A stretch of 64,000 bases of DNA, taken from positions 18,502,638 to 18,566,637 of the forward strand of contig NC_092697.1 in the NCBI RefSeq assembly GCF_964275005.1. The letters run 5' to 3'. Shown piece after piece: positions 28,401 to 54,092 of the stretch. The notes under the pieces are model-generated. The model ran no database searches. It saw only the letters and a program-made list of their open reading frames with translations, and was not told the origin of the DNA. The first letter of the stretch is position 1. The number at the start of each line of letters is the position of its first letter. Made by a program: the position numbers and the translations under genes. The stretch comes from Diadema setosum. Lineage: Eukaryota > Echinodermata > Echinoidea > Diadematoida > Diadematidae.

Positions 28401-31400
28401 GTCATTACAAGACTTTGGAAGAACTCTCCATAGATCTACTTGACAATTACTGGTATGCCGGGCAATCCAACCTGACTGTGACATTACCTGGAAGCATACA
28501 AAATATGTAGCGTTGCTGATGATGTTCGCACAAGGAAATACATGTGTATTCCATGCAACATACTATACCGTTGAGAAAAGCCACATTTACAATGGATACC
28601 TACTCACTATGTATGTGGGTCTACAGGCATCAAAGTGTCTAGATCAGGTGAATTGTATTACACTTTAAAAAAACAAAAACAAAGCCCACATACAGTAAGT
28701 ACAGGATTATGCGTGGTTTAAGGTTGCGCTTTGTCTGATTCCACTTTAATCTTACAGCTCTACTGAAGTGTTACGAATCTGACACATGTCTTTTTACAAA
28801 GAGAGAGACTAGCATATACTCGACATGTAGGAGTCCCTTCATGCAGTTTGAATGTGACTTCCTCTAGTGTTGACAAAGTAGGAACTTAAAACTCTGAACA
28901 AGCTCTCTACAGAGAAAAGCATCTACAAGTACCTGAGCCGAGGCACTTCTACCGAGGTACTTACAGCCACTGCAATGACACTGGAATCTGGTTTCCATTC
29001 TGCACCGCAGTTTGTGCCAAGAACCACAATGGAGTCATCAGAGCGTCGGTAGCTGACTATCAGCACACATGGCTACAGGGGCAAGTCAGCAAAGAGAGAG
29101 GGGGAAGAAATGGTTATCATGGCAAATTTAATACTACAAGAAAACAAGCTACACTGTATCTGACATAATATGATTAAGATCTGCAACTGACAACCAAGCA
29201 AAATATGCAACTTGTGAAATGCACAATGTACAGTATAGCGTATCCGACAAAATAACGTATTTAAGCTCTTATTTCCGCATACAAATATTTTCACGAATGA
29301 GGAGGTCACATTTTTGTGAGATGTTATGCTACTGTAAATGCATGATTACCTGTAGCACATGGCGATACTTTTGCATGTCATAAAATTTGCAGTCCAACAG
29401 CAATTCACAAAATTCGCGAAAATCAAACCTTTGCAAAAATAACAGCTTACGGATATTGGTCCTCACATCATTCTTCTACCCAATGTAAACATTGTGCTAA
29501 TGCCTTGGTTACAACAACCAAGAGATGAGAACAAACGGTTCACTCCATTTGATACCATACAAGAATAGACACAATCATTTACCAATTTAAAGCAAGTATC
29601 TGGGTAGCATGTTGCACAGCTTTAACATCATATCAAGTCTATTACAATTACAGCCAAATGATTCTCCACACAAACAAAAATTTCAATTTTCATACCAAAA
29701 ATCAGGCACTGCTGGACTTTGCTGAGCAGTCTGCAGGGTGGTCTAAATCAGTCTGAAGGGGGTTACACACCGGGCTTTGTGAAGAGTTGCGTAGCGTTGC
29801 GTAGCAACTGCACGCAACATTACACAACTCTACATAACAGTACACCGAGGAACATAGAATAGGTACACAAGATGTACGCAAAAAAATTAAACACATATAA
29901 CTTTAATTCAAACATGTTTAATTTTTTGCGTACATTGTGCGTACCTATTTTGCGTCCCTCGGCATACTGTTACGTAGAGTTGCGTACTCACAGTGTATAG
30001 TTGCATAGTGTTGCGTAGTAATTGCACACAACACTATGCAACTCTACTCAAAGTCCGGTGTGAAACCCCCTTTGGGAAGAAAATCTGATTGGTCCACTAC
30101 AGCAATGTCATTTCACATAAAATGTTGAATTGTAGAAAATACTCTTAAAGGGCATAAGGCATACCAGTATCAAAGTGCCTTTCAAATCAAGTTTGTCCAC
30201 TGTTGTAGGCACCCACTCAAATTTTGTAATTCACGAAGCATAATTCTGCATATTATCAATTATCATGAATTTCTCTCTCCATCTTTTAGAATAAAAAGTA
30301 ACTAGAAATGTCGCTACAGCGACTGGTTATACCCCCGCCAAACAACATTTCATAAGCTTTGGTCAAAACAACATTTCATAAGCTTTGGTCAAAAAACTGA
30401 GGAAGTAGTTAAATCTGCAAGATCTTTCCTTGATCTTCTGCCATTAATATGCCGTTACCATGGCAACGTACTTTCAGGTACTGTCGAAAAATGCGTCTTG
30501 CACATCTACAACCAAAGGCACACATCTGTACCAAGTTTCATGGAAATTGGGCAAAAACTGAGGAAGTAGTTTGCAACACAAAATTTTCCATCATTTTGGC
30601 TCATAATATGTGAGCATGTTACCAAGGCAACATACTTTTTGTAACTGTCAAGAAATGTGTCATGCTGACCTATATCCTAAGACAAACATTCAATATGAAT
30701 TCCATGAGAATTGGAAGAACACTGATGAAGCAGTTTTGCCATGAAGCATTTTGCCCTATATTTTACCAATAACATGCCGTTACCATGGCAACGCACTTTT
30801 TGCCACTGCGGAAATATGTGTCTTGCACATTAACATATTCAGATGAACATCTGTACCTAATTTCATAAAAATTGATCAAAAACTGTGGGAGGAGTTCGCG
30901 ACGCAAGATTTGTACCCATTTTTGCCCATTATATGCCGTTACCATGGCAACGAACTTTTGGGTACTGTCAAAAAATACGTCTTGCACATCTACAACCCAA
31001 GGCACACATCTGTGCCAAGTTTTATGGGAATCGGTTGAAAACTGAGGAAGTAGTTCGCGACGCAAGATTTGTACCCATTTTTGCCCATAATATGCCATTA
31101 CCATGGCAACATACTTTTGGGTACTGTCAAAAAATACGTCTTGCACATCTACAACCCAAGGCACACATCTGTGCCAAGTTTTATGGGAATCGGTTGAAAA
31201 CTAAGGAAGTAGTTCGCGACGCAAGATTTGTACCCATTTTTGCCCATAATATGCCGTTACCATGGCAACGTACTTTGGGTACTGTCAAAAAATACGTCTT
31301 GCACATCTACAACCCAAGGCACACATCTGTGCCAAGTTTTATGGGAATCGGTTGAAAACTGAGGAAGTAGTTCGCGACGCAAGATTTGCAACGAACCAAC

Positions 31401-34400
31401 CGCCCGACCAACCGACCGCCCGACCGCCCGACCGACCGTCCGCTGATTCCTATATACCCCCTTCAAACTTCGTTTGGCGGGGGTATAATAAGAAGCCAAA
31501 TCAAAATCGTTCTGAATGAAAGTGCAAATCACCTAACTCTGCTTGAAGTATCACCCAACCTGCTTTTAGTGCATAGCAACAATGCACCCCTCACACTGGG
31601 CAGTGTGTTTCAGCAGAAAAAAAAAAAAAAGAAAGAAAAATCACACCACAGTCTCTCTATGCATCATACTGATCTCTCAAACAGAGTGATGAGGCAAAGA
31701 GGATTTATTCTGCTAAATATTTCAGTGGTGTTTCATCACTTAATCAACAGGAGTTCATCAATCTCAAAGGGGAGAACTTCAGGGTATGCACCTGCAGGAA
31801 CCTGTTAAAAATTGTCCACTCTGAAACTAGAATTATCACTGAAGGTGATTAATACCCCCGCCCCTAGTGTTGCTTTAGAGTATGTGATGTCTTGAGGGCA
31901 ATGACGTTAACACCAAGTTTGTGCACTTGTCAAATTGGAAATAGAACAATTTTAGTTTACTGTACAATTACAGAGTTGACACTGAGTATAAAACTTACAG
32001 CAAATAGAAACGTGCTTTCCCCCAGCATCACTACAAAAGACCATCATACACACCAAATTTGACCTTCATAGCTTGAATGGTTTATTTTGATACAAAAATG
32101 AGTGGTTACCATGGCAATACATTTTCCTTAAACTAACACATTGGTGTCTTGCAAACTACACTTCGAGATCATGATACATACTAAATTTGACTTTAATTGC
32201 TTGAATGATGGAAAAGTTATTCGATCTGCAAGGTTTTGGTAAAATTGTGGTTACCATGGCAACGGTTTGTGTGACAAACACAAAAACTACAGTATGTGTT
32301 CCACATCTACACGTGTATACATTGTACCTCAGGGCCATAATGCCTACCAAATTTGGTTTCAATTGCTTGAAAACTGTGGAAAAATTTCACTCCACAGGAT
32401 TTAAAAAAAAACCAAAAAACATGCGGTTACCATGGCAATGCATTGTCCAATACAAATACAAAGGACATTTTGCAAAACTACACTTAAAGAGCATCATAAA
32501 CACCAAATTTCACCTTCACAGATTAAACGGTTCAATTTGATACAAAAATGAGTGGTTACCATGGCAACACATTTTTCTTAGCACATTGGTGTCTTGCATA
32601 ACTACACCTCCCAATCATCATACATACCATACTAAATTTGACCTTAATTGCTTGAATGATGTGGAAGTTATTCAATCCACAAGGTTTTGGTAAAATTATG
32701 GTTACCATGGCAACGCTTTGTCCGACAAACACAAAAATTACGTGTTTCACATCTATGCCTCAAAGCCATAATGCCTACCAAATTTTATTTCAATTGCTTC
32801 AAAACTGTGGAAGTTGTTCACTCCAAAAGATTTCGAAGAAAACACGGTTACCACGGCAACGCTTTGTCAAGACAAACACAAAGAGTGTCTTGCATAACTA
32901 CACCTATAGATCATCATAGATACCAATTTTGAAATTGATTGCTCAAATACTTTGGAAGTTATTCAATCCACAAGGTTTGGTAAAATTATGGTTACCATGG
33001 CAACGCATAGTCCGACAAACACAAGAAACATGTCTTGCACATCTATACCACAATATCATCATTTACCCTAAGTTTCATTTAAATTGCTTCAAAACTGTAG
33101 GAGGAGTTGCGACGCAAGATTTTGCAACAGACTGACCGACCGCCCGTCCACCCGACCGCCCGACCGCCCGACCTACATCACGCTGATTCCTATCTATACC
33201 CCCTTCACACTACAGTGTGGCGGGGGTATAATGAGCGCAAGAGTCATGTAGCTACAGTTGTGTACAGGCTAGACCAAAACGTGAGTTCAGCATATAATTA
33301 GCAGATACAGAAAGAACTCATTGACAAGGGCTGCCTTGACATTGATGATGGCTCGGTGGCCTGTGGCCACTAAAAATTGATGTCAAGCCACTGCATATCA
33401 AAAAAGCTATTTGGTGGCCCAATTGGGCCCTTACACATTGTGTACTGTATGTAAGATTCAAAATGGATTGTTATTTTTCCTTTTACTTCTGGGCCACTAC
33501 TTTGATTTCTTGATTTCTTTTTCAGGCCACCAAAATGTCATATTAAAAGTTTTTTTTTTTTTATATATATATAATAATAGTGGCCCATGGGTCACCAGCA
33601 GAAAACGGTTAGTGGTGAGCCCTGATTGTGTGCGAGAGGAAAGAACAAAAGTATGAGTACTACAGACTGTTATCTTTTTTAATTGAATTTCTCTTCATCT
33701 ACAGCATGAACATCTCTCACAGTACACACTAAATGATTATTGATAAAGAGAGGGAGAAGACACACCTGCACTTGTGATGATGAGAGAAAGAAAAAAAAAG
33801 CTACAAGGTTCTCTGTACTTGTTGCTACTGCAATCCATGTACATGTTCATGTTCATGTGTCATGTACATTGTACATGAACATGAACCAGGGTTCACTGTA
33901 TGTACACCTGCTTGATCTTGCATATTACTTGCTGCTACTGCAATCCATGTACATGTTCATGTTCATGTGTCATGTACATTGTACATGAACATGAACCAGG
34001 GTTCACTGTATGTACACCTGCTTGATCTTGCATATTACCGGTATTCACAAGGAAACTGAAGATAGCATGGTAGACAACTCTGCAGTACAGCATACAATTT
34101 CATTAACGAGTTTGCCTGTTCCGGTGTTTTTTTTAAAGGACTGCACAGGATGGGAAGATACACTGTACACGTACTATTTATATACACAAAATCAGTCACT
34201 GGGGAGTATAAAGCCGGCATGCCAAAGACAAGGTTTGTAAAAAATGCATAGTACGCAGATAACACCCAATAAGAGTGAAAGCGTAATACTGCTCACAGAG
34301 TTCAAATAATTGAAAACATGTCCAATCACTGGGGATATACATTGTGTTGAGGCAAGACTTTGGAGGTTATTTTCAGAAATTTCATTTGATTGTACATTCC

Positions 34401-37400
34401 TTTGATCTCGTAGAGATTGCCCAGGCAAATATGATTTCCTCCCAAAACTGCACCATGCAATTTTCTCGAACATAATTTCACGATAATACATGGCATAGAC
34501 ATGTACAAAGTATCTCCCTTTTTTAACCTGTTAAGGACGGTTTGATTTTGCTACAACACGCAATTCCCATAGACACCATAGTATACTCAGGACTCGTCCT
34601 CAACGGGTTATGTGTATAATGGTACACAACACAAAGACATGGCTGCTGTACAATGTGTATTACATATCAATGCTGAGATTGTGTATAAAGTCCCGATTCT
34701 AAAACATCCATATGGCACATACAGTATTGTTCAAAAGTGTACAATGTAAACGCACTCAAATTATTCTGACATACATGACATACATGTATACCCCTCCTCC
34801 TTACTTGATACAATGACAATATGCTACAATGTACTGTATACGCCAAATACTTCGCGAGGTTTTTATTTTCGCGAATTTCGCGAGTCAGCTGCTATTCGCG
34901 AAATTAAAGACACACAAAAATATTGACTCTGATCCCAATGTGAATGTGACGTACGTGTGTACTCTTCTCCATTCAGTACAGGACACCACGATCATGAATT
35001 TAACTACTCACGAAATTGTCAGGGAATTCCCGTTTCGCGAAAATTTAGACTCACGAAATAGATGGCGTATACAGTACGTGGCTGTCTGCTTTGACACTGA
35101 GTTTGTTGAAGTTGCATGGTTGTTCTTTTTGAGTGTGTGTTCATAGCATATTATATCAGCCATGATCTATGTTGATACTATACTTGTACAAATTCTTCAG
35201 CACTGAAGGTGTAGGTGAGTGTAATGGGCCAAGGGATTAACGGAAAGAAGAGAAACCTTTGGAGGATAACAAAAGAGAGAATTACCATCATTTACTTGTG
35301 CTTTGTAGTCTATTAAACAGATTATGGCTTCCCAGTACTGAAGGGTGTAGCTGAACCACCTACATGTAATCTTAGATACAGAGTTCAGGTTTTTGGATCT
35401 CAGCCTTCCTGTCTAAAGATGCAGGCCCATGGATGTACACTAGATGTGTGATGGACTGTTGCTCTTCACACAGTGTATCTCTATGTTGCAAAGTTTGAGT
35501 CATCACTTCTTGTATTCCCTAGTTAAGTAGCCAGCATCTTTTGCATACCCTCAGAATACATAATCAGAGCTTGTTTAATGAGTAAATCTGGTGTAAACAA
35601 CACATGTGTTAGGTTATACCTCAAGCATAACTCAGGGAGAAATGTTTACTAATTCCGGTTTACTTAGAACTATGAATGTTTCAGATAACCTCTGATCTTT
35701 TCATTTACATTTACAGCAAAAGAATCTCCTTGAATTATTAGCAAACATGCTACAGGCTTGAGTACTGTACTGTATACATGTACATGTACAGTGTACTTAC
35801 ATGATACATTTAATACACCTGAGTGTTGAGGCAAGTTACAGTTGTAGCTGTACAATATAACACCAAATGTTTTGGTTTGGTTTTTGTAACAAAAAATAGC
35901 CTGTTTTCCAGGGGGTGGGGGGGGGGGAGGGGGTAACTCACTTTGCCATGCATACTTGTACACACACAGACAGCTGTTTTGTCAGTACAATGGGAGCAGT
36001 TACACGTTTGTGTACATGGTATGCCGAACACTTCTATAGGCTGTTGAACATATTTTTTTTTTTTTAATAAAAAAGCATAAAAATTAGAAGCTGATTATTG
36101 TTTGCCTTTTCTGGAAATCATAAAAAAAAAAACACATTCATTATTAATCATTCCTCTCATTTTTATTATAAAGGTCAGAGATACAACATTTACCATTGTT
36201 TACTGGTTAAACAACATTTACATTTGTACTAGTCTTTAAAATTAAGGTATGTGCGTAAGAAAAAAAAAATACCAGTATGCATGGCTTTGATAATGATTTT
36301 ATGACCTTTTTTTTTTTTTTTTTAATTAAATGATGTCACATTAAGCCTACGGCATAACTGAGATGATTAGCCATTGGGTGCCTACATAGATGGCAATGTC
36401 TAGTACAAAATGTTATTGTACCTCCTTCCCTATCATAATGAGAAAGACTCAACTTCCCACGTACAGTAGGTATATAAAGTTTGTTTAACATCATATCCAA
36501 TATAGCTGGAACCCCTGGAATAACTGAACATGATAACATACAATTGCACCTCATTACTTTCTATACTTTTTAGGGTCTATAACTTTCTCACGATCTAATT
36601 TTATTTGTGTCCAGAGCACTCCACAGAAAGGATTTGGCCTAATTGTTACAAATCATATAATACTTTTATTGCATGCTGGGGGCAAGGCTACCCTGCAACA
36701 ATGATTTCGGGAGAAAAAGAATGCATACAAACCTGTACATCAGTATGAAGACAACCTGAACATTCCCACACAGTTTTATATAAAATCAGTAAATTATATG
36801 GACCAACTGCTGATTTAATAGTTTGCATAGCAAACGAGGAAGTCTCACCATTACTGCATGTCTAATTGGATAACTATGCTAAGCACTTCTCACCTACAGC
36901 TGTACATGTAGCGCACTTGCAGAAAGGTAGAACTAAAAACAAAGGTGGTGACCAGAGCAGATGGCAATGGAATGACAAGACACATTAAAACAGGACCTTT
37001 GCACCTACTGTTATACAAGTACTGTAAATCCAGTTTCCCTATTAAAAAGTCGAAACAGAGACTTCAATTGGATAGACCGATAAGACACTAGAAGGCTTAT
37101 AGCACATTTGACAATGTACAATCTCTGTGCTTCATGATCCAGCAATCTACAGTGTACGTCTTCATTTGTCCCGATAGAGTATGTAATCTATCAAGTAATA
37201 TTTGGCAGAAGAATCACAATTTCTGGGAAAAAAAAAAAAAAAAAAAAGGTTGAAGGGGATGGCTAGTAACTGATCAGTGGAAATCAGTTTGAATGCTGGG
37301 GGATGATTGTTCTAATCCTTGTGGGATTCATTACGAGTACATTATATATCTATTGTTGTGTGAAAATTATTTGCTTCAGAATGGTCTCATGTTCAAGTAA

Positions 37401-40400
37401 TGTGCAGTTCAATGTTTCCAGGTTAGCATGCCTGTACAGTGATGGGGCGATCGTTAACAGAGCACTGAGCACCAACAGCCTGCTGGTAAATTGTAGAAAT
37501 CTATGTATTACATGTAAATTACGTCTGGTCAGTAGAGTATTTTTATACAATGTAGATCAGAAGGCTAGTCATGATTCTACTTTTAGCCTGCATTGCCGAT
37601 TGGCTTGATTGGTAGACCAAGAAAGGTCAAGTGAGGTAGAGTAAAACCCCCAATTTTGATGTACAATTTTGATTTACATGTAAGCTTTTTTGCAATATTT
37701 TTTCAACTCAAATAATACTCTACAAAATCTATAATAATGTATGTTAAATATATCAACCTACTTTTTGCCCCATATTGATTTTTTAAAATCCATCATAAAA
37801 TTTCACAGAATCCCCAAATATTATCACCTCGTCATTTCCCCAAAATTCGGACAGCATCTCCAAAATTCGGAGATTCGTGCGCAATGTCAATACACGTACA
37901 AAGGCCAATGAAAAATGAGCGCGCGCCATACCTTGTTGGCGTAAGGTTGCATCGCGGATATTGCGGCGCTTGTTCGTGTCTGAATTATGGTAACTCTGCA
38001 CTTGCATTCAGCCCCTGTACATTTATTCACTGCATCAGCACGTAGAGAGATTTTGTTTTTCTTTTGTGTTTTTGAGGATACCATCACACCCTGAGCTTGC
38101 GATAAGTGAAAAATCTCGCAACGGAACGGTGTAATTTTTCAATTTTTAGCGCTTTTTCGGCGACCCCGATTCTTTACCCGGGATCTAATTCGCGCACGCT
38201 TTGGAAAAGTTGCGGCAATTCTGCATTTTTGACGGCAAAATTTGGAATTTTAGATGGGTTTTTGGAGGTGACTCAGGCTTTGGAAAAGTTGCGGCGATTC
38301 TGCATTTTTGACGGCAAAATTTGGGATTTTAGATGGGTTTTTGGAGGTGACTCAGGCACTTTCCTGTGGTGAACGAGTTTGCCAGTATGTGAATCGATGC
38401 GTGTGTTGTGACAGTAGAATTTGCTGGCTTGTGATAAGTGATAAGTGTCCAGATTTTGGAGGCCGGCCGAATATGGCTTTTACTCTAGATGTAGATCTAG
38501 AGAGAGCAGAGGTAGCTAGTAAGTTACAGAGGACACTAACTATACACAGCCCAGTCGCTGTAAAATAGCGACAGGGCTGTACCGTCACGACCCACAACAC
38601 AAAGAGAGCTCAGCGATCGCATTGCAATTGCTTTGAGTTTCGATACTTTAGATCATTTTTTGTCACCTCAAACTCATCTAATGTAAATCTTCATTAATGA
38701 GACTTCATGTATCTATGCTATCGATATTGACATAGGGTAACATCCCCAGTATTCGGTCACTTAAAGGACAAGTTCACCTTCATTAACATAAGGATTAAGA
38801 GAATGCAGCAATATTAGTAGAACACATCAGTGAAAGTTTGAGGAAAATTGGACAATCTATGCAAAAGTTATGAATTTTTAAAACTTTTGTGTTGGAACCG
38901 TTGGATGAGGGGACTACTAAGGCTCGTGATATCATATGAGTACAACAGTATAAAGAAAATATAAAGAAAATTCAACATATTTTCACTTTTTTCGCATAAT
39001 AAAAGAGCACTTGACTTGCCTCTTTCTAAAGTCAAGGGAATGTGTACTTTTTTCAAAAGATGAAATTTTGTGAAATTCTCTTTATATTTTCCTTATACAT
39101 CTGTATGTGACTGTGCATCACAAAACAAACAAAAAGTTGCACCACTTGATTTTACTTGAGGACTCAAGAAAGGTGAAATGGGTCAACCAAGTCAATTTTG
39201 AGTTTTCCATATTTTCTGAAAGAGCTATTCTTCTTCTACATTATTCTCGAGTTAGGGATCATAAATTGAATGGGAAAGTGGGTTTTCAGCCATTTTTATA
39301 CAACCCCTTTTTTGGTAGAGTAGTGTGATCAGGTTTTTCTTAGAGGCTCCCTTTCATTTCTTGAAAATCCTATGCACACTCTTCACTTTCAAGTCTAGTA
39401 ATTTTTGAAAGGATGATGCTACTGCTGTGAAAGCTGGCATTTATCATGGGCAGAATGTGTTAATGGAGCATGCTCAATTTCAGCTTAATTTTATAATCCC
39501 TTCATTGTTGTTGCTACAGTGGGTTAACATCATGTTTTTGTCCCATTCATGGCACAGGTAGCACAGGTAGTACATTGAATAGACGCGTGTTCTTCAAAGC
39601 CTCTTTTCTCAGTTCACACTTTTCAAGAGTGTGGCTTTCTTTCCAATATTTGTATAGGTTAGGAGAATCCATTTGAATTGAGTTATAATTGTACATCATT
39701 TTAAAGCTCAGAGTCAGCTTTTTCAGAATCTGCCCTTAACTAAAAATCTATGTCCGGCGACTTTTTGTTGGTTTTGTGGTGCAGGGTCACATATTGTTGT
39801 ACGTATGTGACATCATACACTGCAGTAGTCTTCTCATCCAGCGGTGACTGCACAAAAACTTCAAAAATTCATAACTTTTGAACGGATTGTCCAATTTTCC
39901 TCAAACTTTCAATGATGTGTTCTACTAATATTGCTACATTCTCTCAATCCTTATGTTAATGAAGGTGAACTTGTCCTTTAAGCTTTTTTTGCAATATTTT
40001 TCGAACTAAAATAACACATACATACAACTTATCTGCAGCAATGTATGTGAAATACATCAAATTTCTTTTATCTCAATTTTCATTTTGTTAAATATCACAC
40101 AGAATTTCGAAAAATCCCAAAATATATCAACTTGAAAATTCCCCAGTATACGGTCATCGCGACCAGTATTCGGTCACGCGATATGCGTGTTCAAGGCAGC
40201 TGAAAAATGCGCGCGCACGCCCTTGTTGGCGCAAAATTGCATCGGGGACGTTGTGGCGCCCGTTGGTGACCAAATACTGGGGTATCGGCACTTGCATTCA
40301 ACCCTTGTACATTGAGACACTGTATCGGCACGTACAGAAATTTTGTTTTTCTTTTGTGTTTTTGACGATACCATCATACTCTGAGCTTGCGATAAGCAAA

Positions 40401-42335: not shown

Positions 42336-42393
42336 AGTAAAAATTGCTCTCCAGTCAACAGACTATCCTCTAAATTATTGCGAGAGAGTGTAC

Positions 42394-42406
42394 GTCGCCA
42401 TTTTCC
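42394..42406 (-). promoter_or_regulatory. YY1-like motif upstream of RIC1 start
   Basis: On the minus strand this reads GGAAAATGGCGAC, matching the AANATGGCG core of YY1. YY1 sites in animal promoters often lie just downstream of the transcription start. It sits about 60 bp before the RIC1 ATG and on the same strand. Chance occurrence cannot be excluded. Confidence 0.5.
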
Positions 42407-43744
42407 GACAGACGTAGTATTTAATTAGTAATAAAAGAAATAGAGGCAAAGCTACACACGAAATAATTGGATGATTTTCAGTCCTATGCTGGTCAACAGC
42501 CAATCAGAAATGTTATAAGAGGATACAGAACAGCACACCTGGTATTGGTGTAGTCTTTTTTACAGTCGCTTGACAACTTTATGATGATGATAATAATGAT
42601 GATGATAATAGCAGTGGTAGTAGTAGAAGTGATAATAATAACAAAGAAAATGATAATAACATCAATCGTCACTTTACTTGAATTCAATCTGACATCAACA
42701 AAGGGAGACAGTGAAAGACGTAACGTTAGAAATAACAAAATTATTAAATCAATAGTTATGATCACAACAACAACAACAACAAAGGCTGTGTTTAATTGCT
42801 TCTGCTGTTTCTACTGATGATACTTGCACAACTTTTCATTCCTACAGAAAGACCTGACGGGTATCAGCATTTGCTGTGCGTAGAGTTAGTAAAAACTGCC
42901 CTCTTCACAATCATGGGAAGTTTCCACCTGTGACAGACAAACTTAATGACATAGGTTTCATCAAAATCAGACATAGACCCTATTGGTGTATTATATGTAA
43001 GTTTTGGCATTTTATAATTTTCCCATGTTTTCACAATCAGTGATATCAGTTGCAACCGCAGACTCAAACGGAGATGTCATCACCTCACACAGTGCAGGTC
43101 TCCCATTAAAATAAACCTAAATCACAAGCATCACTATTCTTTTTCAACAAGAAATCAGTAAGAACCAGTGAGAAAGCCTCCTGGAATCCCCATGTATCCT
43201 AATAATAATCTTATGTAGGAATAATTGAACCTATATAAGCAATGATGACAGTTTAGGGGACAGAGACCGCAGTTGCTAAATCATTGCTCAGCATCTAGAA
43301 AAAACTCGTGTTTTTGATGGCCTTTTACATACAAACCAATGACATAATCACATCTTCCATTTGTCGGACACAGGTGAAAGTGTGAAATTCCATTGCTTTC
43401 ATTATCTTATATCTGATTTTTATTCTATTCAACCCTATTTGCTCCATTTAAAAGCTATGTTGATAGGCTTACTTGAACATCAACAGTTTGATTGAATTGC
43501 ACTTTTGCAGACCGGCCATGGCGGCACACTCTATTGATCTCCCCTCCCCCCCCCCCAAAAAAAGTCCATTAGTAACAGTGTTATATAGTCACCATCACTG
43601 TATAGTCATTTAGAAGGAACTCAGTCAAAGCTGTCCGGTTCAGTGAGATCTTAAAAAAAGAGAAAAAAGAAATGCTTAAGGTGGGCCCCGTTCACAAAAT
43701 CCAAACCCAGTTCATTTTCATGATATCATATTGTGACAGAATGC

Positions 43745-44328
43745 TAAAGGATAATGACACTCAAATATAGGCCTACTTGTTGACTGAGGGGAATGCAGCA
43801 CTATTAGTAGAACACATTCAGGGAAGTTTGAGGAAAATCAGATACCTAATCTGTTCCAAAGTTATGAATTTTTGAAATATTGGTGCTGCAATTGTTTGGA
43901 GGAAATTACAACACTTTGTGATGTCATAGGTCAATCATATAAAGAAGAAAGAGAATTCCACAAAGTAACATTTTTTATGAAGGTGAATATTCCCTCAACT
44001 GTTACACTAGCATATTTTAAGGGTAATAAAACATTCCCCCTGCTTTCTTAACAAGGTAGGTCAAGTGAATGTCTTTTCACTATTTTAGCAGGCAATGTGA
44101 TCGAGTGCTAATTTCTCTTTATACATGTGTATTTTCTTTTCATTGTCCTGCAGTGACATCTAGAGCTATTGTGGTCTCCTCATCCAGCCAGGGCGGCACC
44201 AAAACTTTAAAAAAAAAAATAAGGTTTTTGAAAGGATGCGTGTCCGATTCCTCAATCTCCACTGATCGTGCTTTATATTGCTGCATATACTCAACCCAGA
44301 TTATTTTATTTGGGTTTCTCTTCCTCTA
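43745..44328. mobile_element. TTAA MITE family copy 4 (degraded)
   Basis: Both arms are recognisable by GGAATGCAGCACTATTAGTA and TAGAACACATTCAGGGAAGT at the left, and weakly by their inverse at the right. The termini and TTAA are eroded, so the limits are approximate. Confidence 0.6.
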
Positions 44329-45339
44329 AGAACCTGGATAGTAAGACTACGCATTGGCAGAGGGCGGAGCGTGTGACCCATTTCACGAGAAGACGGAAGT
44401 AATCCCTATTGTGTACTGTTTCCTAGCGATCGGGATACGACGGCCGGCCAGCCAGCGATGCACCTGTTGGATTTCGAGTCTGTAAGATAATTGAAATCCT
44501 GGCTTTTTTCATACAGATACGCCTGATATAGATGACAGAGTGATCAAGAATCATAAACATATTACTGGCTGATGTGTTACAATACCAAGAGTAAGTAAAT
44601 ACTAAAATGGCTCTGTCATGAACACCATTATTCGTACGTTTTGTTTTGATTTTGTTTCTTGTTTTTGTCATTCGACTTGCTGAAAATAATACCACCAGCA
44701 CCACACGGCACTGGCACCAGACCGAAGGCCGGACAACTAGAAATCTATAGCTAGACACGAGATCTAAATTTCATTCAATAGCATTTGATACATAGGGGGC
44801 CTAAATTAGAATTCTAGATGAATCCCCACAAGCAGAGCGAGTAGTTTAAAGTTACCGACGACGTTTGATAACAACATTGTCAAATGTTACTGGTGTGATG
44901 TGGTGAGTGTGGATCTACTGTACTGCAACAGCCTACTTCGATGACTTAATTAAAATTTACTAGATCTAGTTGTGCGTAGTAAAGGAAAGTATAAACCAAA
45001 GATAGTATATAACAAGATAAGAAGGCGCACAATAAAAATGGACACAAAATGGCTACCCTACATGACGATACAAAAGATAGCTAAGTACAAACTCAGTACA
45101 CCTAGAAATATCATTCATTTCCAAAGGTTTCTATAAATTCTAGTGGTATTTTTATTGTTTATTATCTTAAAAAGATTTAAAAATTATAGCCATAATTTTT
45201 TTTCGATTAAGGGGATTATTTTGAAGAATGAGATTTTAAAGTAAAGCTTAAGGATTATTTCATGGAGGTAAAAATTTGGCAACAACGTGATCTAAAAACA
45301 ATCAACGACACTTGATAAACAGCAACAACAACCAGAATC

Positions 45340-45470
45340 AAAGACAGGGCGTCTCAGGTGATGTGCGTAATACGTTTGAGGACTGCGCGCTGTCCATTAA
45401 CTTCAAAGACAGCGCGTCTCAGGTGATGTGCGTAATACGCTTGAGGACCGCGCGCTGTCCATTTGTTTTG
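45340..45470. repeat. 65-bp tandem duplication with GCGC palindromes
   Basis: Two units begin AAAGACAGGGCGTCTCAGGT and AAAGACAGCGCGTCTCAGGT. Within each, GACAGCGCG pairs with CGCGCTGTC about 35 bp later, so each unit can form a stem. It lies about 640 bp upstream of the DYNLT5 start codon. Confidence 0.88.
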
Positions 45471-46101
45471 TACAGGATTAGCGCGCACTTTCCTGTCTTT
45501 TAGTTAGATCTAAGTGTCTTTGGTATAAACATTGATAAAAGAAGTGTAAAACTGTATAACTACTTACACTACAGTGTAGTGGTCTATTTACCTACAGTGC
45601 ATTGCCCTCAACTCATTGACGCTGTGTCATCAGCGCGATCATCAGCCGACTCCACACAATCATACGAAGTGAGGGTTGATAACACATTCGTGGAATCAAA
45701 AACTGAAATGTCAATATCGTTCATTTAACAAATATGTCCCTTTGCTTGGCTGTGGTGATATGCCTGAAAGAGAAAGTGTATAGTATTGTTGTAGAAAAGA
45801 GGATATATAAGTGCTTCCATTTTATTAGAGCCTCAGTAGAGGTTGTTCTACATACAAATTGTATCTAGGTAGAACCTACATCTGTATAACATATAAATGA
45901 GATTAAACTAAGTCTTGCAGTGAATTTTTCAGAGTAAAGTGATGACCTTTCTTCTTTTTTTCCCCAATGTGGGAAACTGGGATATGCAATTTACAAAAGT
46001 GTATGTTGATGTGCATTGTTACTTGGTGATGTCGTTGCAGCTGTAACCATCCTGAGAATAGCTGGTGAAACAGACTGTCTGCCGGTCGCAGATCTGCCGA
46101 G

Positions 46102-46220
46102 ATGGCTTCAGATAAGCAAGATGTGGCAAGGACTAAAGCAGCCAAGCTCCTGAAGAGACATGGCAGCGCTTCCTCCCTGCTCAGTGGGAGTGAGTTTGGA
46201 GGGAGATTCAAACCAGCAGG
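46102..46220 (+). CDS. DYNLT5: DYNLT5 exon 1 (coding part)
   Basis: ATG at 46102 (CCGAGATGG, with G at +4); donor CAGG|GTAGGT. It encodes [20 protein letters not shown] and [19 protein letters not shown] plus two bases of the next Gly. TTGCAG at 46035-46040 just upstream could be the acceptor of a non-coding exon. Confidence 0.88.
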
Positions 46221-48999
46221 GTAGGTCTGCCTTATTCTATCAAAGTCCTCTTATAGTCCTTGATTTAGTGTAACCAGCTGTAATGATGATGTTGTAATTT
46301 AGAATATCATGATGTTGGAAGAAACAAAAGATCATCATAAGTGGAGCTGAGATAGTAATGCTAGATACAGAAGTATCAACAGAAGAAATATCCATGAAGA
46401 TAAGATGTAATATATATTATTTTATGCATGTATTTCCTTGAGGAAAAATAAGCTGTGAAGGACCATTTCTCATGATACAGAGGTGAAGTCTTATTTACAT
46501 TAGCTCAAAATTATTTGATAAATTTACGGAGAATATATTTGTTTGAAATCTTTATTTCATCTTTAGTCTTTTTTATTGTCCTTACCTTTGTGATGCATGT
46601 GTGAAAAAATAATATATATATGCTACAGAAATAGTGCCCTTTCATCTATCATCACCTTTCAAAATGGATTTATATCTCCTTAAGTAACTGCATCAAAAGT
46701 AGAATTTAAAGGACAAGTTCACCGTCATAGACATGTGAGTTGAGTGAATGCAGCAATAGTAGAACACATAGTGAGAGTTTGAGGAAAATCGGACAATCTG
46801 TTCAAAAGTTATGAATTTTTGAAGTTTCTGCTCAGTCACAGCTGGATAAAAAGACTACATTGTACCATAGCATGTGATGTCACATGTATACAACGACATG
46901 AAGAAAGAATAAAGAAAATTCAACATATTTCCATTTTTCTTGCATAACAAAAGAACACTCGACTTCTCTCTTTCAGAAGGCAGGGGGAATAATATTACCC
47001 TTAACATACAGCAGTAACAAGTCAAAGAAATGTGCACTTTATTCAAAAAGTGAAGTTTTGTGAAATTCTCTTTTTATTTCCCTTATATCCTTGTAGGCAT
47101 GTGACATCATACATCATAGTAGTCTTCTCATCCAGCAGTGACTGCGCAGATACTTTAAAAATTCATAACTTTTGAACAGATCATATGATATTATTTTCCT
47201 CAAACTTTCACTGATGTGTTCTACTAATATTGCTGCATTCTCTCAATCCTTATGTCTATGAAGGTGGGCTTGTCCTTGAACCTTGCCTCTCTTGAATAAA
47301 GCAAGTGATACAAAATTAAAAATGTTAGTTATTTAGAGATGACCCAACGTACCCTATCAGTCTAGCTGCTAAAACCTACGGCAAAAATGTTTACATTTGT
47401 TATAATTCTCATCTGTATTTCAAGTATGTCTCATCAATTGGCTAACACTGTCAAGGTACATTTCGTATGTGCACCATAAATGGAACTGTGATGTCTTTTC
47501 AGGTCTGTGAGCACTGTGTCCTTTATTGATGAGCCAGGCGATGGGACAAGGCCTGGTCCTCCTGTTAGACTCGAGCCCACTTACCAGCTTGGTCCTGTTA
47601 AGAAGTTCCCTGTCATGACTGTGAAGAGCATCCTACAAGAGACACTAGAGAACTACTTGTTGGACAAGAAATATGAACCAGAATTGTGCAAAAAGATGAC
47701 CAAGACCATCTCAGATGTACGTAAAACTTTTTAGAAAGAAAACAAACAAACAAACATGATTACGAAGAGTTAATGCTCATGCTTCCTGGTATTGTCAGGA
47801 CATCTACTTCCATGGATTACCACATTCAGATAACAACAGCACTGACATGTATTCCACAAATGATAGTACTCTGAATCAGTTTGAGTTGACTTATTCTGAA
47901 ATGAATTTTAGCAACACCAAGCAAGCGTTGGTGTACAGTAGTATGGTGTACACTGTATACTTGCTAAATTTATTCCAGAATACACCATGGATACTGGTTT
48001 TGGGGGTATGCTGAATGCAGGTAGTAGTCTCTGCTTAGATTATAGTATTTTCCATGGTACCGGTTTTCCTGATGTGGTAGATTGGGTTGTAATTGTATAG
48101 GTGGTAATTTTCCTGATTGGGTATGTTCCATGTGCTGTTTTCCCCTGGTAGTGATTATCCTGGTTGGTAATGGTGGTGATAGTAGTCATCAAGGGTGAAG
48201 CATGATATTGACAGCTGGTGCAGATGGAGCTGCTTAAAAAAGCAAAATGTTCAGAGAAGTACTAACTCAGAAGGAAGGATTTAAAGTATGAAAATGGGGT
48301 TCTGACGCCAGAGAGGTTATGTGAACAATGTTACATCCCAATACGGGAACTTTTTAACCTGCATCTACATAGGTAAGACAGGTACGAAATTTGACTACAA
48401 CTTGGTAACCGGTCATTGTCTGATTTGCAACATCTGCATCTACTTGGTCAAATACTTTGAGACTCAAATGTGTGTATGTCTTGCCTATAACATAAGTATG
48501 CTTATAATAGTAGTTAGTTTGGAGTACGTAGTATATCATATATATCAGGAGATATGAATAGAATACCTGGTCTGAAGATGCATATACCATATCAATCTTT
48601 GTTCCAACTCGAACTGTATGTATCATAAAAGCTATAACTGTGTACTGTATTATAAAATGCACACATGCACACATAGAAATAACATAATTGCTGTAACAGT
48701 CACAGTTAAGCAGTAGTTAATTTTTCCATTTCTCGGGAATATGTGCGAGTACTGAACAAAACAAATAATTTGTATTCATTTCTTTCTTTTGGCAGGATGT
48801 GAAAGCTCAGGTCAAGGATCTCATGTTGCCTCGCTACAAGATTATAGTCCTCGTTCACATCGGTCAGCTGCAAGACCAGGGGTTAAAGGTCAGCAGTCGC
48901 TGTCTGTGGGATGCCTCCAATGACACATCAGCATCGTATGAATTTAGAAACACCAGTCTCTTTGCTGTTGCAATGGTGTATGGTGTGTATTATGAGTAA
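46102..48999 (+). CDS. DYNLT5: DYNLT5 / TCTEX1D1, Tctex1-type dynein light chain (complete, 3 coding exons, 178 aa)
   Basis: A Tctex1-domain protein of the dynein light chain family, whose members act as dimers on dynein motors or in cilia and sperm flagella (family knowledge; the exact role of DYNLT5 is little known). Coding exons 46102-46220, 47503-47716 and 48796-48999 have GT-AG introns and total 537 nt including the TAA stop. Length (178) is close to human DYNLT5 (179). Diagnostic segments: a disordered N-terminus with [19 protein letters not shown], then [68 protein letters not shown] and a C-terminal [14 protein letters not shown], which ends the Tctex1 fold in this family. It is divergent to RIC1. 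DYNLT5 is favoured over TCTEX1D4-type paralogues because of its N-terminal motif and length. Confidence 0.93.
46710..47276. mobile_element. TTAA MITE family copy 3
   Basis: Lies in DYNLT5 intron 1. Left end AGGACAAGTTCACC follows TTAA (46706-46709). The right end GGTGGGCTTGTCCT is followed by TTGA, a one-base decay of TTAA. The arms share AGTAGAACACATAGTGAGAG and its inverse with the other copies. Confidence 0.8.
47503..47716 (+). CDS. DYNLT5: DYNLT5 exon 2
   Basis: A 214-nt exon, acceptor TCTTTTCAG, donor TCAGAT|GTACGT. It encodes [39 protein letters not shown] and [12 protein letters not shown]. This is the start of the Tctex1 domain. Confidence 0.94.
48796..48999 (+). CDS. DYNLT5: DYNLT5 exon 3 with stop
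   Basis: A 204-nt exon, acceptor TTTTGGCAG. It encodes [40 protein letters not shown] and ends VYGVYYE-TAA. It is the most conserved part of the Tctex1 domain. The poly(A) site is not assignable; AATAAA occurs at several downstream points, for example 52673 and 54903. Confidence 0.95.
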
Positions 49000-49268
49000 T
49001 TACATTTCTATCCTTGTAAGAAATATAAAGATACATACTACTTTGATCTGTTTTGATATCTATGGTATACAGAATTATCCATTGCTGCTGAGAATACCAA
49101 AGTCTTCTTATTTTTTTCATTCTTTATTTTTATTTATTTATTCATTTGATCTCATATGACACCATAGAGGAAAAAGTTTGTGTTTAAATCTTGACACGTT
49201 TGTTATTATGGCGATGCAAGAGTGTTTAGATTACATTTGGTAGCAATAGCATTTGCTATGTCACACTC

Positions 49269-49309
<41 letters not shown>

Positions 49310-49959
49310 GAATGAATCAAAATCACTCCTATTGTAAAATGCATGGGAAGGTAGTCACATTGCTCTGAACCTTCACTTGTTTCATTGATTATACCTGACT
49401 GCTTATCCATGGGCATGTATGCAGAACAAGAATGCATGTCATACATATATATACGTAACAAAAAAGAAGAATGCTCTCATTTTATTTTTCCTGCTGTTAG
49501 TACATCAACGAGCACTCTGAGAGAACAGCAAACGGTTCAGCACTATCCAAGTCGTGCAATGATTCAAGCGGAGATATTAGTTCATGTAATTTGTGTGACA
49601 GATCATAAGAAAATAGTTTACACATTTTTCTGGAAGCAATTTTTTCTTTGAAAAGAGGTTCATCATGCATCAGAGAAAGTGAAGGTGTTGTATAGTTTAG
49701 CGCTCACCATTTGCCAAGCATTTACTATGCATATATATCAGGAATTGTAGACTTAATAGTCAACATTTACCACAAAAGAACCAACCAAATAATCAGTTTG
49801 CTTGCAAGAGTACATTGTGAGCATTCTTCTCCCTAATTATTAAATTTTGTTTAAGGTCTTGGATAGCTACTGTGTATTCCATAACTTGGTAATATTATAC
49901 AAACTTGGAAATAATATACAGGATAGATTCACAGAACATAATTTGATTTAAATTAAGGT

Positions 49960-50343
49960 ATAATAATAATAATGATAATAGCTGGTTTTTATATAGCGCA
50001 TTTCACACACTTCAGGGTTTCAATGCGCTTTACAGACTATTATTACCCCGGTCACTGGATACATTATCAACCAGCACTAACAGTGCTCATTCTCCACTCC
50101 CTGGGGAGCATTCCAGCCAGTCGCAGCCATTTTTACAGGTGCGCACATGCTTATCAACCAACATAAGCTTTCTCATCCTACCGGGTACCCATTTATACTC
50201 CTGGGTGGAGAGCAGCAATGTGGATAAAGTGCCTTGCTGAAGGGCAAACGTGTCGGGCTTGGCATGGGCTCGAACCCACGAACCATACCACGCTCATGTC
50301 GTTCACAGACGAGCGCTCTTATCCACTCAGCCACGACACCTCC
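49960..50343 (-). mobile_element. tRNA-derived SINE
   Basis: The minus-strand head carries RNA polymerase III promoter boxes: an A box TGGCTGAGTGGA (50322-50333) and a B box GGTTCGAGCCC (50266-50276). The body passes through GGGTACCCGGTAGGATGAG and GTAAAGCGCATTGAAACCC to a tail GCGCTATATAAAAACCAGC plus an ATT repeat at 49961-49979. The AGGTAT found at both flanks may be a short target duplication. It is not a functional tRNA gene: the cloverleaf is not intact and a 3' body follows. Confidence 0.85.
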
Positions 50344-53127
50344 ACAGGTATGCAGATTATATTTCTGTTTTATGCACATTGTTGGTCAAAACTATGAACA
50401 CATATGCAGAATCATCTTATCTAATATATAAGCAGATTTTATTATAGAAGAGAATGATTTACTCTCACAGATAAAGTGATAAGTATGCTGTTACATATCT
50501 TATTTATTTCTTCCTCTTTTTGTCATTATGATATATGTTGCGTTTGAACACTACTGTAATCACTACAAGTCTTTGTACAAATTGCAGGGTATGTGTCATG
50601 ATCATAGCTTGTAATAGTTTAGTTTATCAACTGCAATACCTTCAGTATGATATGGTGCAAGTGGCTGTCAGATAATACTGGTATTTTGTAGGTGATTATA
50701 GTAATGCATTTCAATGCACTTTCAAGCATGAAAGAGAATCAACTCTAAACTTGAGTAGAGCAAACATCTTGGAACTTCTGCGCAAGCATAGATAAAGTCA
50801 GCAACTCTTCTACAATTCTTTAGTAGTCACCTCACTCTTGTATAACTCACTGCTTGACTGAAATTCTTGTTGTACATAGTTTAAAGTTGAATATTTGAAT
50901 GGGGTCAGGCTCTTTGTGTATCGTGGCAAAGTGTATCATGGCACGTTTTGATCCACATCATTGGCATCTTAGCATGTACTGTATGGAAGGATAAGAAAGA
51001 GCCAACATGGGTATTGCATTATTCATAGTTCTCATTTTAAGGCTGATATTGCATTGACCTTCACTCACTTCATCAAGTTATATAATCCGACTTGTTCATG
51101 ATACAAGTAAAATTTACCAAATAAGTAAAAATAAACAGCCAGTTCATGTTACATTTCTTTTTATTTTATGAGAAAAATGTTTGAGAAAGTGAGAAAGATG
51201 CAGTTGTCATTGAAGACAAAGTTTTAAAAATGTAGCAAACATACTGCTGTTATATGGAATATTTTGCAGTGCAGAAAATTTGTTGAATTTGCACTCTATT
51301 GAACTAGTGAATGCATAAGAACATAGACATATATTTGGATATCATAGCGTGTGCGCAGGAATTTTATCAGTGAATTCAGAAACAAGTGCATTTCATTGGT
51401 ACTGGATGATTCATCATGACAAATTTTCCTTGTGAACAGTATGTCTGCCCAACTAATATATAGTGAAAACATGGTAATATAGCCTATAAGATGTACCAAA
51501 TATATTAAGAGATACATTGTATGCAGATTCTATGAAATGAAGAAGTATAACTTTTGTGTGAAGTGATTATTGAAGACGGTCATATCTTTTTTGGCTGTCA
51601 TCAAAAAGGGTCTTGTACAACCCAGAAACTGCAGCATTCACATAAATTAATGCTCTGTTTTTTCTTTTTTTCTTTTTTTTCTTTTTTTTTTTTGGGGGGG
51701 GGGAGTGGGGGGTGTTTATGTTCATCTATATATACTTGTATGCATTGTTTCCTTTCTGTTGTACATATTTTGTTTTGAGTGGTGTGTGTATTGTAGGTAG
51801 GATATTGTTGTCTTTATATGACCAGCATTTTCACAGGACAAAAAAGTAATCTCTGTGGTTATGATTATCAAACTACTTGTGAGTAATATGTACTGTAAAA
51901 GTGGATATTTTCACATAAGTAATCTTTCGCGTTTAGCTGGGTGAGATGAATTTCTCATGTTTTCAATTCTGCAGAATCAAAACATTAATCACTGGAATAT
52001 ACATGTATGGCATGCAAAAATATTCGCTACTTTTATTTTCATGCTAGCTTCTGGTTTCACCAAATGTGCGAAAATGTCCGCTTTTTCAGTAATGTACAAT
52101 GTATCTAGCCATAGCTCCATGCCGACAAACTATAAGAGAGATAGTAGCTTTTATATGGTATTCAATCATTTATAAAGCTTTAAGGAGTACAGAAGAAGAG
52201 AATTTTAATAGAGTATGCTTTGATATTTTTTTTTTCTTTTTGGTCAGAAATTTATATCCAATCAGAAAGATCTCTTTGTACATGCATACTTACAGATACA
52301 GTATATTTTTAGGAAACACAGAAATTGTCCAGTTAATAGTATTTTTATACACCATAAACCGAACTTGTATGGATTCAATTTGTGATTCATGGATGATGTC
52401 CATTTTGCCAAGTCAAGAGCAGTATTCACGTCCTGGAACGGCAGATGCCTGACATGCAAGTATATGTTCCGTCCTGATGGTTTCACAAAAGCAAATGACA
52501 GCAAATGTTTCCAGCTTTCATAATGGGTATTTAAATTCTCAGTGGTACATGTACCTCACCCATGTAAGAAAATTTTTCTCCCAGACTGTGATTAATGCAG
52601 CTTATTTAAATATCAAAGGATGTTGACAGTAGTGTATAGCATCTTTTATGTGTGCTGTGTGTTTGATCATGAAATAAAGTATTAATTGTTTGTTTGGGGT
52701 TTTTTTCCATTTTGAGTAGAGTCCATGAAAGTCCATCACATGCAATTAATAGATTCAAGAGATATTGATATTCAGTCATGGGTGTTAAGACTCACTGTTA
52801 AACTTTCATCTCTTCTGTGTTATTAGCATCAGTGATTGTAATAATGTTTTTAGCTCTCATCATGGAGCATTCTTTTTTCTTTTTTTTTTTTAGTGTGTAT
52901 TCAATGCACTTTGAAATTTGGTTAGAAAAGAAGTCAGTTTCAATGCTTTGATTTCTGTGAATTGATGACAATATAAACCAAATTGTCCTGGCAGTGTTAA
53001 GTAGATGATCACTTGCAATGAGGCTTTATGTGCACATCAGGTATTTTGTATACATGTAGAAATCATCCAGTCCACTCTATGCTTAGTATGGTGTAGAGTC
53101 AAGCTCACTCTGGTTTACTTGTTGATT

Positions 53128-54092
53128 TTTATGCCTCCGCCACGAAGTGTCGCCGGAGGCATTATGTTTTCGGGTTGTCCATCCGTCCGTCCGTCAGTAA
53201 TCAATTTTGTGGACAGCGTATCTAAAAAACTGTTAGAGTATCCTAATGAAACTTGGCATGTATATGTATGAGTGGGTGAAGTTGTGTCTATCAACGTTTG
53301 GGTGCACCTGCTCAAGGTCAAAGGTCAAAAAGTCAAAGTCAAATGCTCAAAATTTTACTATTTCCCCTATATCTATGCAATGTCTGAAGGTATTTTCTTG
53401 AAACTTGGTGTATACATGAACTACCAAATAAAGATTCCCCAGAGAGAGCTTTGGGTCATGAGGTCAAAGGTCAAGGGTCAACGGTCAAGTGAAAATGTTA
53501 AAATTTTACTTTTTTCTCCATATCTCACAAATATTTCAAGGTATTTTAATGGAACTTAGTATATGCATGTACTGACTGGCAGTGATCATGAGGGAATTTA
53601 GGGGTCAAAGGTCAAGGTCAACTCATCAAAATGTCATTATTTCTTTCTTATCTATGCAATGCCTGCAGGATTTTTTTCTTGAAACTTAGTGTATACATGT
53701 ATTACCCAATACAGAGTCTCTTGGAAGTTTCTTGCCAAAAGGTCAAAGGTCAAAAAGGTAAAAAATCAAGTGAAAGTGTTAAATTCCCAGGGCAAAATCC
53801 AATTGAATATTCACTTCTTCTTTAAATTATAAAGGGTCAAAAGTTGGGTACAAATCCTCAAATCCCCAAATCCTCGAATACCTGCACTCTTAGACAGTAC
53901 AGCCATTCATCCAAATAAACCTAGTTCAAGGAAAGTAAACACTCAATGCATTTATGACAAACCTGTCATTTTAATATTTTGCCAGTTATGTGAAACTGTC
54001 ATCACACATTGTCAAGACATTGTGCTATAGACCTATTCGGAGAACCATGCATTATGGCGGAGGCATACCAGTCGCCATGGCGGCATTTCTAG
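53128..54092 (+). mobile_element. Helitron/Helentron-like element 3 with AGGTCA direct-repeat array
   Basis: The 5' end is a hairpin: ATGCCTCCG ... CGGAGGCAT around CCACGAAGTGTCGC. The 3' end has GGCGGAGGCATACCA, a hairpin around GTCGCCATGGCGGC, ATTT, then CTAG (54089-54092) followed by TT. The interior is about four diverged units of 140-146 bp, each with GAAACTTGGTGTATACATG-like text and AGGTCA repeats. DR1 sites lie at 53315-53327, 53461-53473, 53602-53614 and 53740-53752. No protein is encoded. A CCGTCCGTCCGTC run follows the 5' hairpin, like the CCGACCGCCC run in elements 1 and 2. Confidence 0.75.

Follow-up and report, generated by a model that had tools for sequence, protein, structure and literature searches.

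HINEs, i.e. non-autonomous Helentrons, are assigned to families by a subterminal inverted repeat (subTIR) of at least 11 bp, according to the available text of Thomas et al. 2014 on HINE and DINE-1 elements (PMC4067079). A similar organization is found in Cg_HINE of Crassostrea gigas and the related Pearl elements, for which the accessible part of the source (PMC7492417) describes a 5' subTIR with its inverse, a microsatellite of the GTCY type, monomers of 140-180 bp, a 3' subTIR with a palindrome, and a TT target; two conserved monomer segments are also mentioned there, their sequence being given only in a figure. Rolling-circle transposons that multiply a host transcription factor site are represented by the Helitrons with heat shock elements of Caenorhabditis, where the available account (PMC6927752) includes binding and expression data for the HSF-1 sites. 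Here, we analyse four elements, named A, B, C and D, from a 64,000-nucleotide stretch of the genome of the sea urchin Diadema setosum (the window; NC_092697.1, positions 18,502,638 to 18,566,637). We consider it very probable that all four are HINEs and that the source elements of A and B kept an RFX-type X-box in every monomer.

The assignment to HINEs follows from the match to the published plan, which comprises the subTIR, its inverse copy at the 5' end, the GTCY-type microsatellite, the monomers, the palindrome, and the T-rich target. With HINE/DINE-1, as presented in the available text of PMC4067079, our elements have in common the subTIRs, the 3' palindrome, the T-rich target and the absence of target modification, as well as tandem repeats inside some copies and copies that outnumber the partner. 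However, the last four bases are CTAG in A, B and C but CTTG in D, no partner with matching ends was found around two Rep loci, and the X-box present in A and B is not mentioned in that text. The features listed above for Cg_HINE recur here, and its partner was not identified there either; the arms are different, and the main text of PMC7492417, as far as accessible, contains neither "CTAG" nor "transcription factor". Compared with the Caenorhabditis Helitrons, the multiplied sites are X-boxes, and the constraint is seen on the element only. A-D are thus new families of a known kind, in a genome with thousands of copies.

Anatomy, boundaries and abundance of the elements

All four elements sit where an earlier note on the window had placed them, as seen from the sequence reading and the inverted-repeat map (Table 1). 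In element sense, their common 5' plan consists of a T-run, an arm, the inverse of that arm a few bases on, and a short microsatellite or similar sequence; at the 3' end, the internal repeats are followed by the complementary arm and a short hairpin, after which come CTAG (CTTG in D) and TT. The 3' ends read GGCGGGGGTAT-AACCA-GTCGC-TGTA-GCGAC-ATTTCTAG in A, GGCGGGGGTAT-TA-ATCAC-CTTCA-GTGAT-AATTCTAG in B, GGCGGAGGCAT-ACCA-GTCGC-CATG-GCGGC-ATTTCTAG in C, and CTCAGGTGAGC-GCT-AGACCCGCGGGTCT-CTTG in D, each with the boundary before TT. All four elements have subterminal inverted repeats of 11 bp or more, exact over 11 bp in B and 13 bp in C, contained in a 24-nt pair at 88% in A, and recognized by inspection as GCTCACCTGAG/CTCAGGTGAGC in D. 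The 5' hairpin made of the arm and its inverse, already proposed in that note, was recovered by the inverted-repeat map for A, B and D and seen in the sequence for C, and D proved to be a fourth element on the same plan with CTTG, on the minus strand. No transposition gene was found in A, B, C or D. The family of A is young, since its next six genomic copies are 97-98% identical.

To follow the boundaries, a set of 25 distinct copies from A, B and C was used (19 plus six more, the window copies being counted once), whose flanks differ from copy to copy. T's lie directly outside both ends in all of them: CTAG is followed by T in 25/25 and by TT in 23 (copies L108 and L112 having a single T), while on the other side the arm is preceded by two or more T's in 24 (one T in L107). 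The arms carry single-base changes in some copies, such as L101, L108 and L112. At C1:619.5 kb, a C-type HINE is interrupted in an internal oligo-T by a nested A element, which T9 precedes and TTTACACTTGG follows (T3 on that side), and an uninterrupted relative reads ...GTTAT7ACATTTGG; the comparison of this single site with its relative reveals no gain beyond T's. The CTAG boundary and TT target claimed earlier thus stand, also in the 88% of genomic ends followed by TT (see below), and the contrary outcomes named in that note, i.e. other boundaries or flanking duplications, did not appear in the 25 copies or the nested site. Although short inverted repeats near both ends would also suit cut-and-paste elements resembling miniature inverted-repeat transposable elements, this origin is hardly credible: the ends are asymmetric, with the hairpin and CTAG on one side and the fold-back arm on the other, only T's were gained at the nested site, and no target duplication was visible by eye in 19 flank pairs.

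A tandem array at C1:4,749 kb (C1:4748400-4750800, L154; upstream L164) contains four 3' parts of one HINE, 499 bp apart, whereas the stretch read includes just one 5' end, and each junction of the array runs from CTAG straight into the element's own internal T-tract; such junctions occur six times in the genome, three of them in this array. From a plain nested insertion, a second 5' part would be expected, and this is absent from the 1.0 kb read upstream. The joining of a 3' end to an internal T-tract, followed by amplification, fits the array, and unequal crossing-over at T's is a possible alternative. Separately, a repeat of ~350 bp with near-identical inverted ends adjoins HINE copy L112 and is also found in several places, among them C10:18301550-18302250 (L156) and C2:29259700-29260500 (L155).

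To count the ends, the host genome (912.7 Mb, 102 contigs) was searched with the patterns and, as a chance control, with their reversed versions. The pattern GGCGGRGGYATN{5,25}CTAG gave 3318+3373 matches (6,691) against 18+8 (26) for the reversed one, and with TT added 2904+2992 (5,896) against 0+1, so that 5,896/6,691 ends (88%) are followed by TT; the baseline in the window, over both strands, is 18 of 274 CTAGs. The arm GGCGGGGGTAT alone gave 534+543 matches versus 3+4 reversed, and the D pattern CTCAGGTGAGCN{8,32}CTTGTT gave 575+575 versus 0. The abundance of arm-hairpin-CTAG ends is therefore far above chance. Matches to GGCGGRGGYATN{8,30}TTCTAG in 97 stretches of IMG/VR viral contigs were taken as chance, the exact inverse arm being present upstream in 0/97 of the stretches available. 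As a side observation, three A-type HINEs lie ~8 kb apart in the same orientation (C17:20463814, 20471866 and 20479755), 99% identical to the query, probably as a tandem duplication of a larger unit.

The same genome harbours autonomous Helentrons. Helitron_like_N has 49 genomic matches, 21 of them in open frames of 3,276-3,517 aa, and 27 of 30 compared Rep loci are mutually ~89% or more identical, the other three forming a second group at ~73% to those. In one Rep gene, OTU, DUF6570 and Herpes_teg_N in the N-terminal part are followed by Rep, PIF1, and a C-terminal Exo_endo_phos, and the Rep motif FYRIEFQQRGSPHTH has the serine that is of Helentron type according to the available text of PMC4067079. 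Two very large autonomous Helentrons, at C1:14812000-14847999 (L160, L150, L146, L147, L151, L161) and C22:16763000-16794999 (L162, L152, L148, L149, L153, L163), have a common core of ~23-26 kb with one frame of ~3,400 aa encoding this set of OTU, DUF6570, Herpes_teg_N, Rep, PIF1 and endonuclease domains; the same repeats flank both sides of each, and the element ends were not found. Together with the plan, the boundaries and the TT target, these Rep-PIF1-endonuclease genes agree with the previous description of A-D as rolling-circle elements recalling Helentrons.

Canonical Helitrons begin with 5' TC, end with a 3' hairpin and CTRR, and insert between A and T. In A, B and C, the CTAG that comes after the hairpin would conform to this type, but a TC start occurs in 0/25 of the A, B and C copies, where T's adjoin the arm instead, subterminal arms are paired at both ends, TT rather than an A-T junction marks 88% of the ends with T on both sides in 25/25 copies, D ends in CTTG, and the Rep proteins of this genome have the Helentron motif and an endonuclease. 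We thus regard canonical Helitrons as a very improbable identity for A-D. As HINEs, they would rely for their movement on the Rep-helicase-endonuclease that an autonomous Helentron supplies in trans. In this model of rolling-circle replication, which we infer together with the role of each hairpin and the driving autonomous element, replication would begin at the hairpin of the 5' arm and terminate at the 3' arm with its hairpin and CTAG (or CTTG, in D). Integration of the copy into an oligo-T target would then duplicate nothing except T's.

The X-box 14-mer in the monomers of A and B

Each monomer of A and B carries the 14-mer GTTACCATGGCAAC on the plus strand, i.e. GTTGCCATGGTAAC in element sense. 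Read as GTTGCC-AT-GGTAAC, it fits exactly the consensus GTNRCC(0-3N)RGYAAC of RFX proteins, as given in the available text of PMC5752003. The window copies retain exact 14-mers in 4/6 (A) and 4/7 (B) monomers, and the X-box is the best-conserved 14-column window across these 13 monomers (0.973 vs 0.547 elsewhere). In majority sequences built from seven A and eight B copies, chosen as best matches, the 14-mer is identical in 6/6 and 7/7 monomers (13/13), compared with 75% (A) and 68% (B) identity in the remaining columns. No other invariant block in either family exceeds 5 bases, the next longest runs being of 5 bases in A and 3 in B. Since the monomers are evenly spaced (146-152 in B, 159-163 in A, and one of 129), no unit is skipped inside the arrays. 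Genome-wide, the exact 14-mer was found 4729+4509 times (9,238), as opposed to 1+0 for its reverse and ~5 expected from base composition; of the first 100 in the list, 92 are less than 500 bp from a neighbour, gaps of 120-170 bp make up 61 of the 99, and an exact GGGGGTAT-type 3' end occurs within 2 kb of 50.

X-boxes kept by the host would be expected to diverge less than their surroundings. After insertion, however, those of B diverge by 0.043 against 0.039 around them, a value matched or undercut by 314 of 500 random block sets, and those of A by 0.019 against 0.011, a faster decay that is perhaps due to the CpG often present at both edges of the 14-mer. Because the X-boxes diverge at least as fast as their surroundings, the constraint acts on the source elements: the lineage of active elements preserved the motif, which was no longer maintained after insertion. 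A second candidate motif, the AGGTCAAAGGTCA-like repeats of C (5 of the 7 window matches at no more than one mismatch lie at 53315-53752), was dropped, since it varies in the C majority sequence and decays like its surroundings (148/2098 differences versus 2411/38693 for the rest; 321/500 random sets as low). We take this motif to be DR1-like, of the nuclear-receptor type.

Regarding the function of the 14-mer, a role as a second hairpin is excluded by folding, as it has no fold of its own (-0.5 kcal/mol, z +0.89). This lack of fold, together with an asymmetric G/T position kept in 13/13 majority-sequence monomers, speaks for a site bound by a protein. The motif would probably serve the spread of the element itself, most simply through a candidate host RFX protein, and the predicted RFX binding can be read as recruitment of a host factor. 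It seems possible, if short of probable, that the two HINE families depend on host RFX, with source copies selected for one X-box per nucleosome-sized monomer. Under such selection, each source element would hold six or seven intact X-boxes, one per monomer and mostly 146-163 bp apart, RFX might open chromatin or drive germ-line activity of the element, and thousands of X-boxes would be seeded across the genome as a by-product. Alternatively, the site may be kept because the transposition machinery or a host protein other than RFX uses it, which we hold to be a somewhat less likely yet serious possibility. The presence of one X-box per monomer is equally in keeping with that alternative, the RFX reading comes from a sequence match, and by eye the first seven bases, GTTGCCA, resemble GTCGCCA of the C-type terminal hairpin; against this stand the exact fit to the published RFX consensus (PMC5752003, available text) and, for a mere second hairpin, the conserved asymmetric position and the absence of a fold.

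Several results weigh against the classification and the constraint proposed here. The motif is wider than A and B, since 8 of the first 100 listed X-boxes are solitary and a fully palindromic X-box, GTTGCCATGGCAAC, occurs at 2,076 genomic sites. The monomers were located by means of their own X-boxes, and the majority sequences come from just the seven and eight best-match copies mentioned above. D ends in CTTG, which is not CTRR. The nested insertion is the only clean site of its kind; of the comparison with empty sites suggested in the earlier note, it provides one case in which only T's are involved, whereas the 19 joined flanks gave no spanning match, the genome places scored being mostly self-matches. 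An autonomous copy sharing the ends, also anticipated there, was not found: the arms of A-D had 0 matches at up to one mismatch in the 36 and 32 kb read around two Rep loci of one family with undelimited ends, and no 3' end of A-D type was present in the 3.6-kb Rep loci L116-L145.

Some of the GTTGCCATGGCAAC sites lie in arrays with ~150-bp spacing, e.g. C1:19438327-19438806, which suggests further X-box-bearing repeat families in the genome. No link between the X-box motif and Helitrons was found among the papers listed in the literature searches, which covered text without figures and supplements; the exact element-sense 14-mer occurs in none of these papers, and its complement in one unrelated paper. 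When transposons carry sites for transcription factors, these are usually regarded as gifts to the host, and a motif that is perfect in source elements and decays after insertion allows an advantage to the element to be told apart from one to the host. Were RFX binding true, it would point to a host factor on which a non-autonomous rolling-circle transposon may depend, and the thousands of new X-boxes would constitute a natural experiment.

Sequence and pairing of the terminal hairpins

A palindrome near the 3' end is present in A-D, although weak in D. The DNA folds of the 3' hairpins reach -4.7 kcal/mol in A (z -2.86 vs shuffles), -3.0 in B (z -4.02), and -5.5 in the relatives of C (z -6.73), compared with -2.9 (z -1.64) for the D palindrome. 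According to the earlier note, the stems differ between elements yet remain paired, which suggests selection on structure rather than on sequence. We surveyed the stems of 100 listed 3' ends of the CTAG type, 96 of which could be parsed (four were too short and were dropped), and full Watson-Crick pairing was found in 74/96. One stem, GTCGC/GCGAC, accounts for 68 of the 96, followed by 10 GTCGC/GCGAT, a one-sided change to G.T, 6 ATCAC/GTGAT (B), and 12 others. Similarly, 78 of the 100 listed D ends have GACCC/GGGTC. As one stem predominates, also in D, the stems are kept in sequence as well as in pairing.

The difference noted between A and C has disappeared, as both have GTCGC/GCGAC: this stem is found in 8 of 9 other C copies (GTAGC...GGGAC in the ninth, L108), mostly in the form GTCGC-CATA-GCGAC, and the GCGGC of the window copy, present in 0/9 relatives, is a private change that gives a G.T pair. 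A two-sided change at the level of a lineage remains only in B, which differs from A at 2/5 pairs, both sides being altered. This, along with single two-sided variants in one A copy (GTTGC/GCAAC) and one D end (GACCT/AGGTC), each among 100 listed, is what favours covarying stems selected for structure only. However, CpGs are involved, in both arms, in the A example and in one of the two changed pairs of B. CpGs decay readily. Considering also the dominance of one stem in both surveys and the one-sided change of the next group, we find selection for structure only unlikely and reject covariation of the stems as a general rule.

Coordinates of the features and neighbouring sequences

Table 1. 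Positions of the four elements and their parts in the window.
Feature	Position	Strand	Basis
Element A, HINE, six ~159-bp monomers	30302..31488	-	sequence reading and inverted-repeat map
A 3' terminal hairpin GTCGC-TGTA-GCGAC, then ATTTCTAG and TT	30310..30323	-	DNA fold
A 3' subterminal arm GGCGGGGGTAT	30329..30339	-	inverted-repeat map
A X-box 14-mers, six, one per monomer; plus-strand starts 30454, 30618, 30779, 30938, 31097, 31256	30454..31269	-	
A microsatellite, GGTC/GGGC type, adjoining 5' hairpin	31395..31442	-	
A 5' fold-back hairpin, arm and its own inverse	31453..31487	-	inverted-repeat map
Element B, HINE, seven ~146-bp monomers	31827..33232	-	sequence reading and inverted-repeat map
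B 3' terminal hairpin ATCAC-CTTCA-GTGAT, then AATTCTAG and TT	31835..31849	-	DNA fold
B 3' subterminal arm GGCGGGGGTAT	31852..31862	-	inverted-repeat map
B X-box 14-mers, seven, one per monomer; plus-strand starts 32105, 32250, 32426, 32555, 32701, 32847, 32991	32105..33004	-	
B 5' fold-back hairpin	33195..33230	-	inverted-repeat map
Element C, HINE, abundant family, internal AGGTCAAAGGTCA-like repeats	53128..54092	+	
C 5' fold-back hairpin, arms 53131-53141 and 53152-53162	53131..53162	+	seen in sequence
C 3' subterminal arm GGCGGAGGCAT	54056..54066	+	
C 3' terminal hairpin GTCGC-CATG-GCGGC (window copy), then ATTTCTAG and TT	54071..54084	+	
Element D, HINE, separate family; 3' end CTTG before TT at 15220, 5' end at 16243	15220..16243	-	
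D 3' terminal palindrome AGACCCGCGGGTCT	15224..15237	-	fold weak
D 3' subterminal arm CTCAGGTGAGC	15241..15251	-	
D 5' fold-back hairpin	16210..16242	-	inverted-repeat map

Adjoining the 3' end of D, the stretch 15067-15206 shares 71% identity with D's 5' part (16115-16243) and is probably what is left of an older D-type HINE. On the minus strand at 16173-16855, short frames resemble exons of a protein-coding gene, presumably RIC1-like. Finally, a largely self-complementary, fold-back-like repeat family occupies 18146-18713, 38760-39140, 39757-39985, 43778-44324 and 46706-47284, its first member matching itself at 87% over 578 columns.

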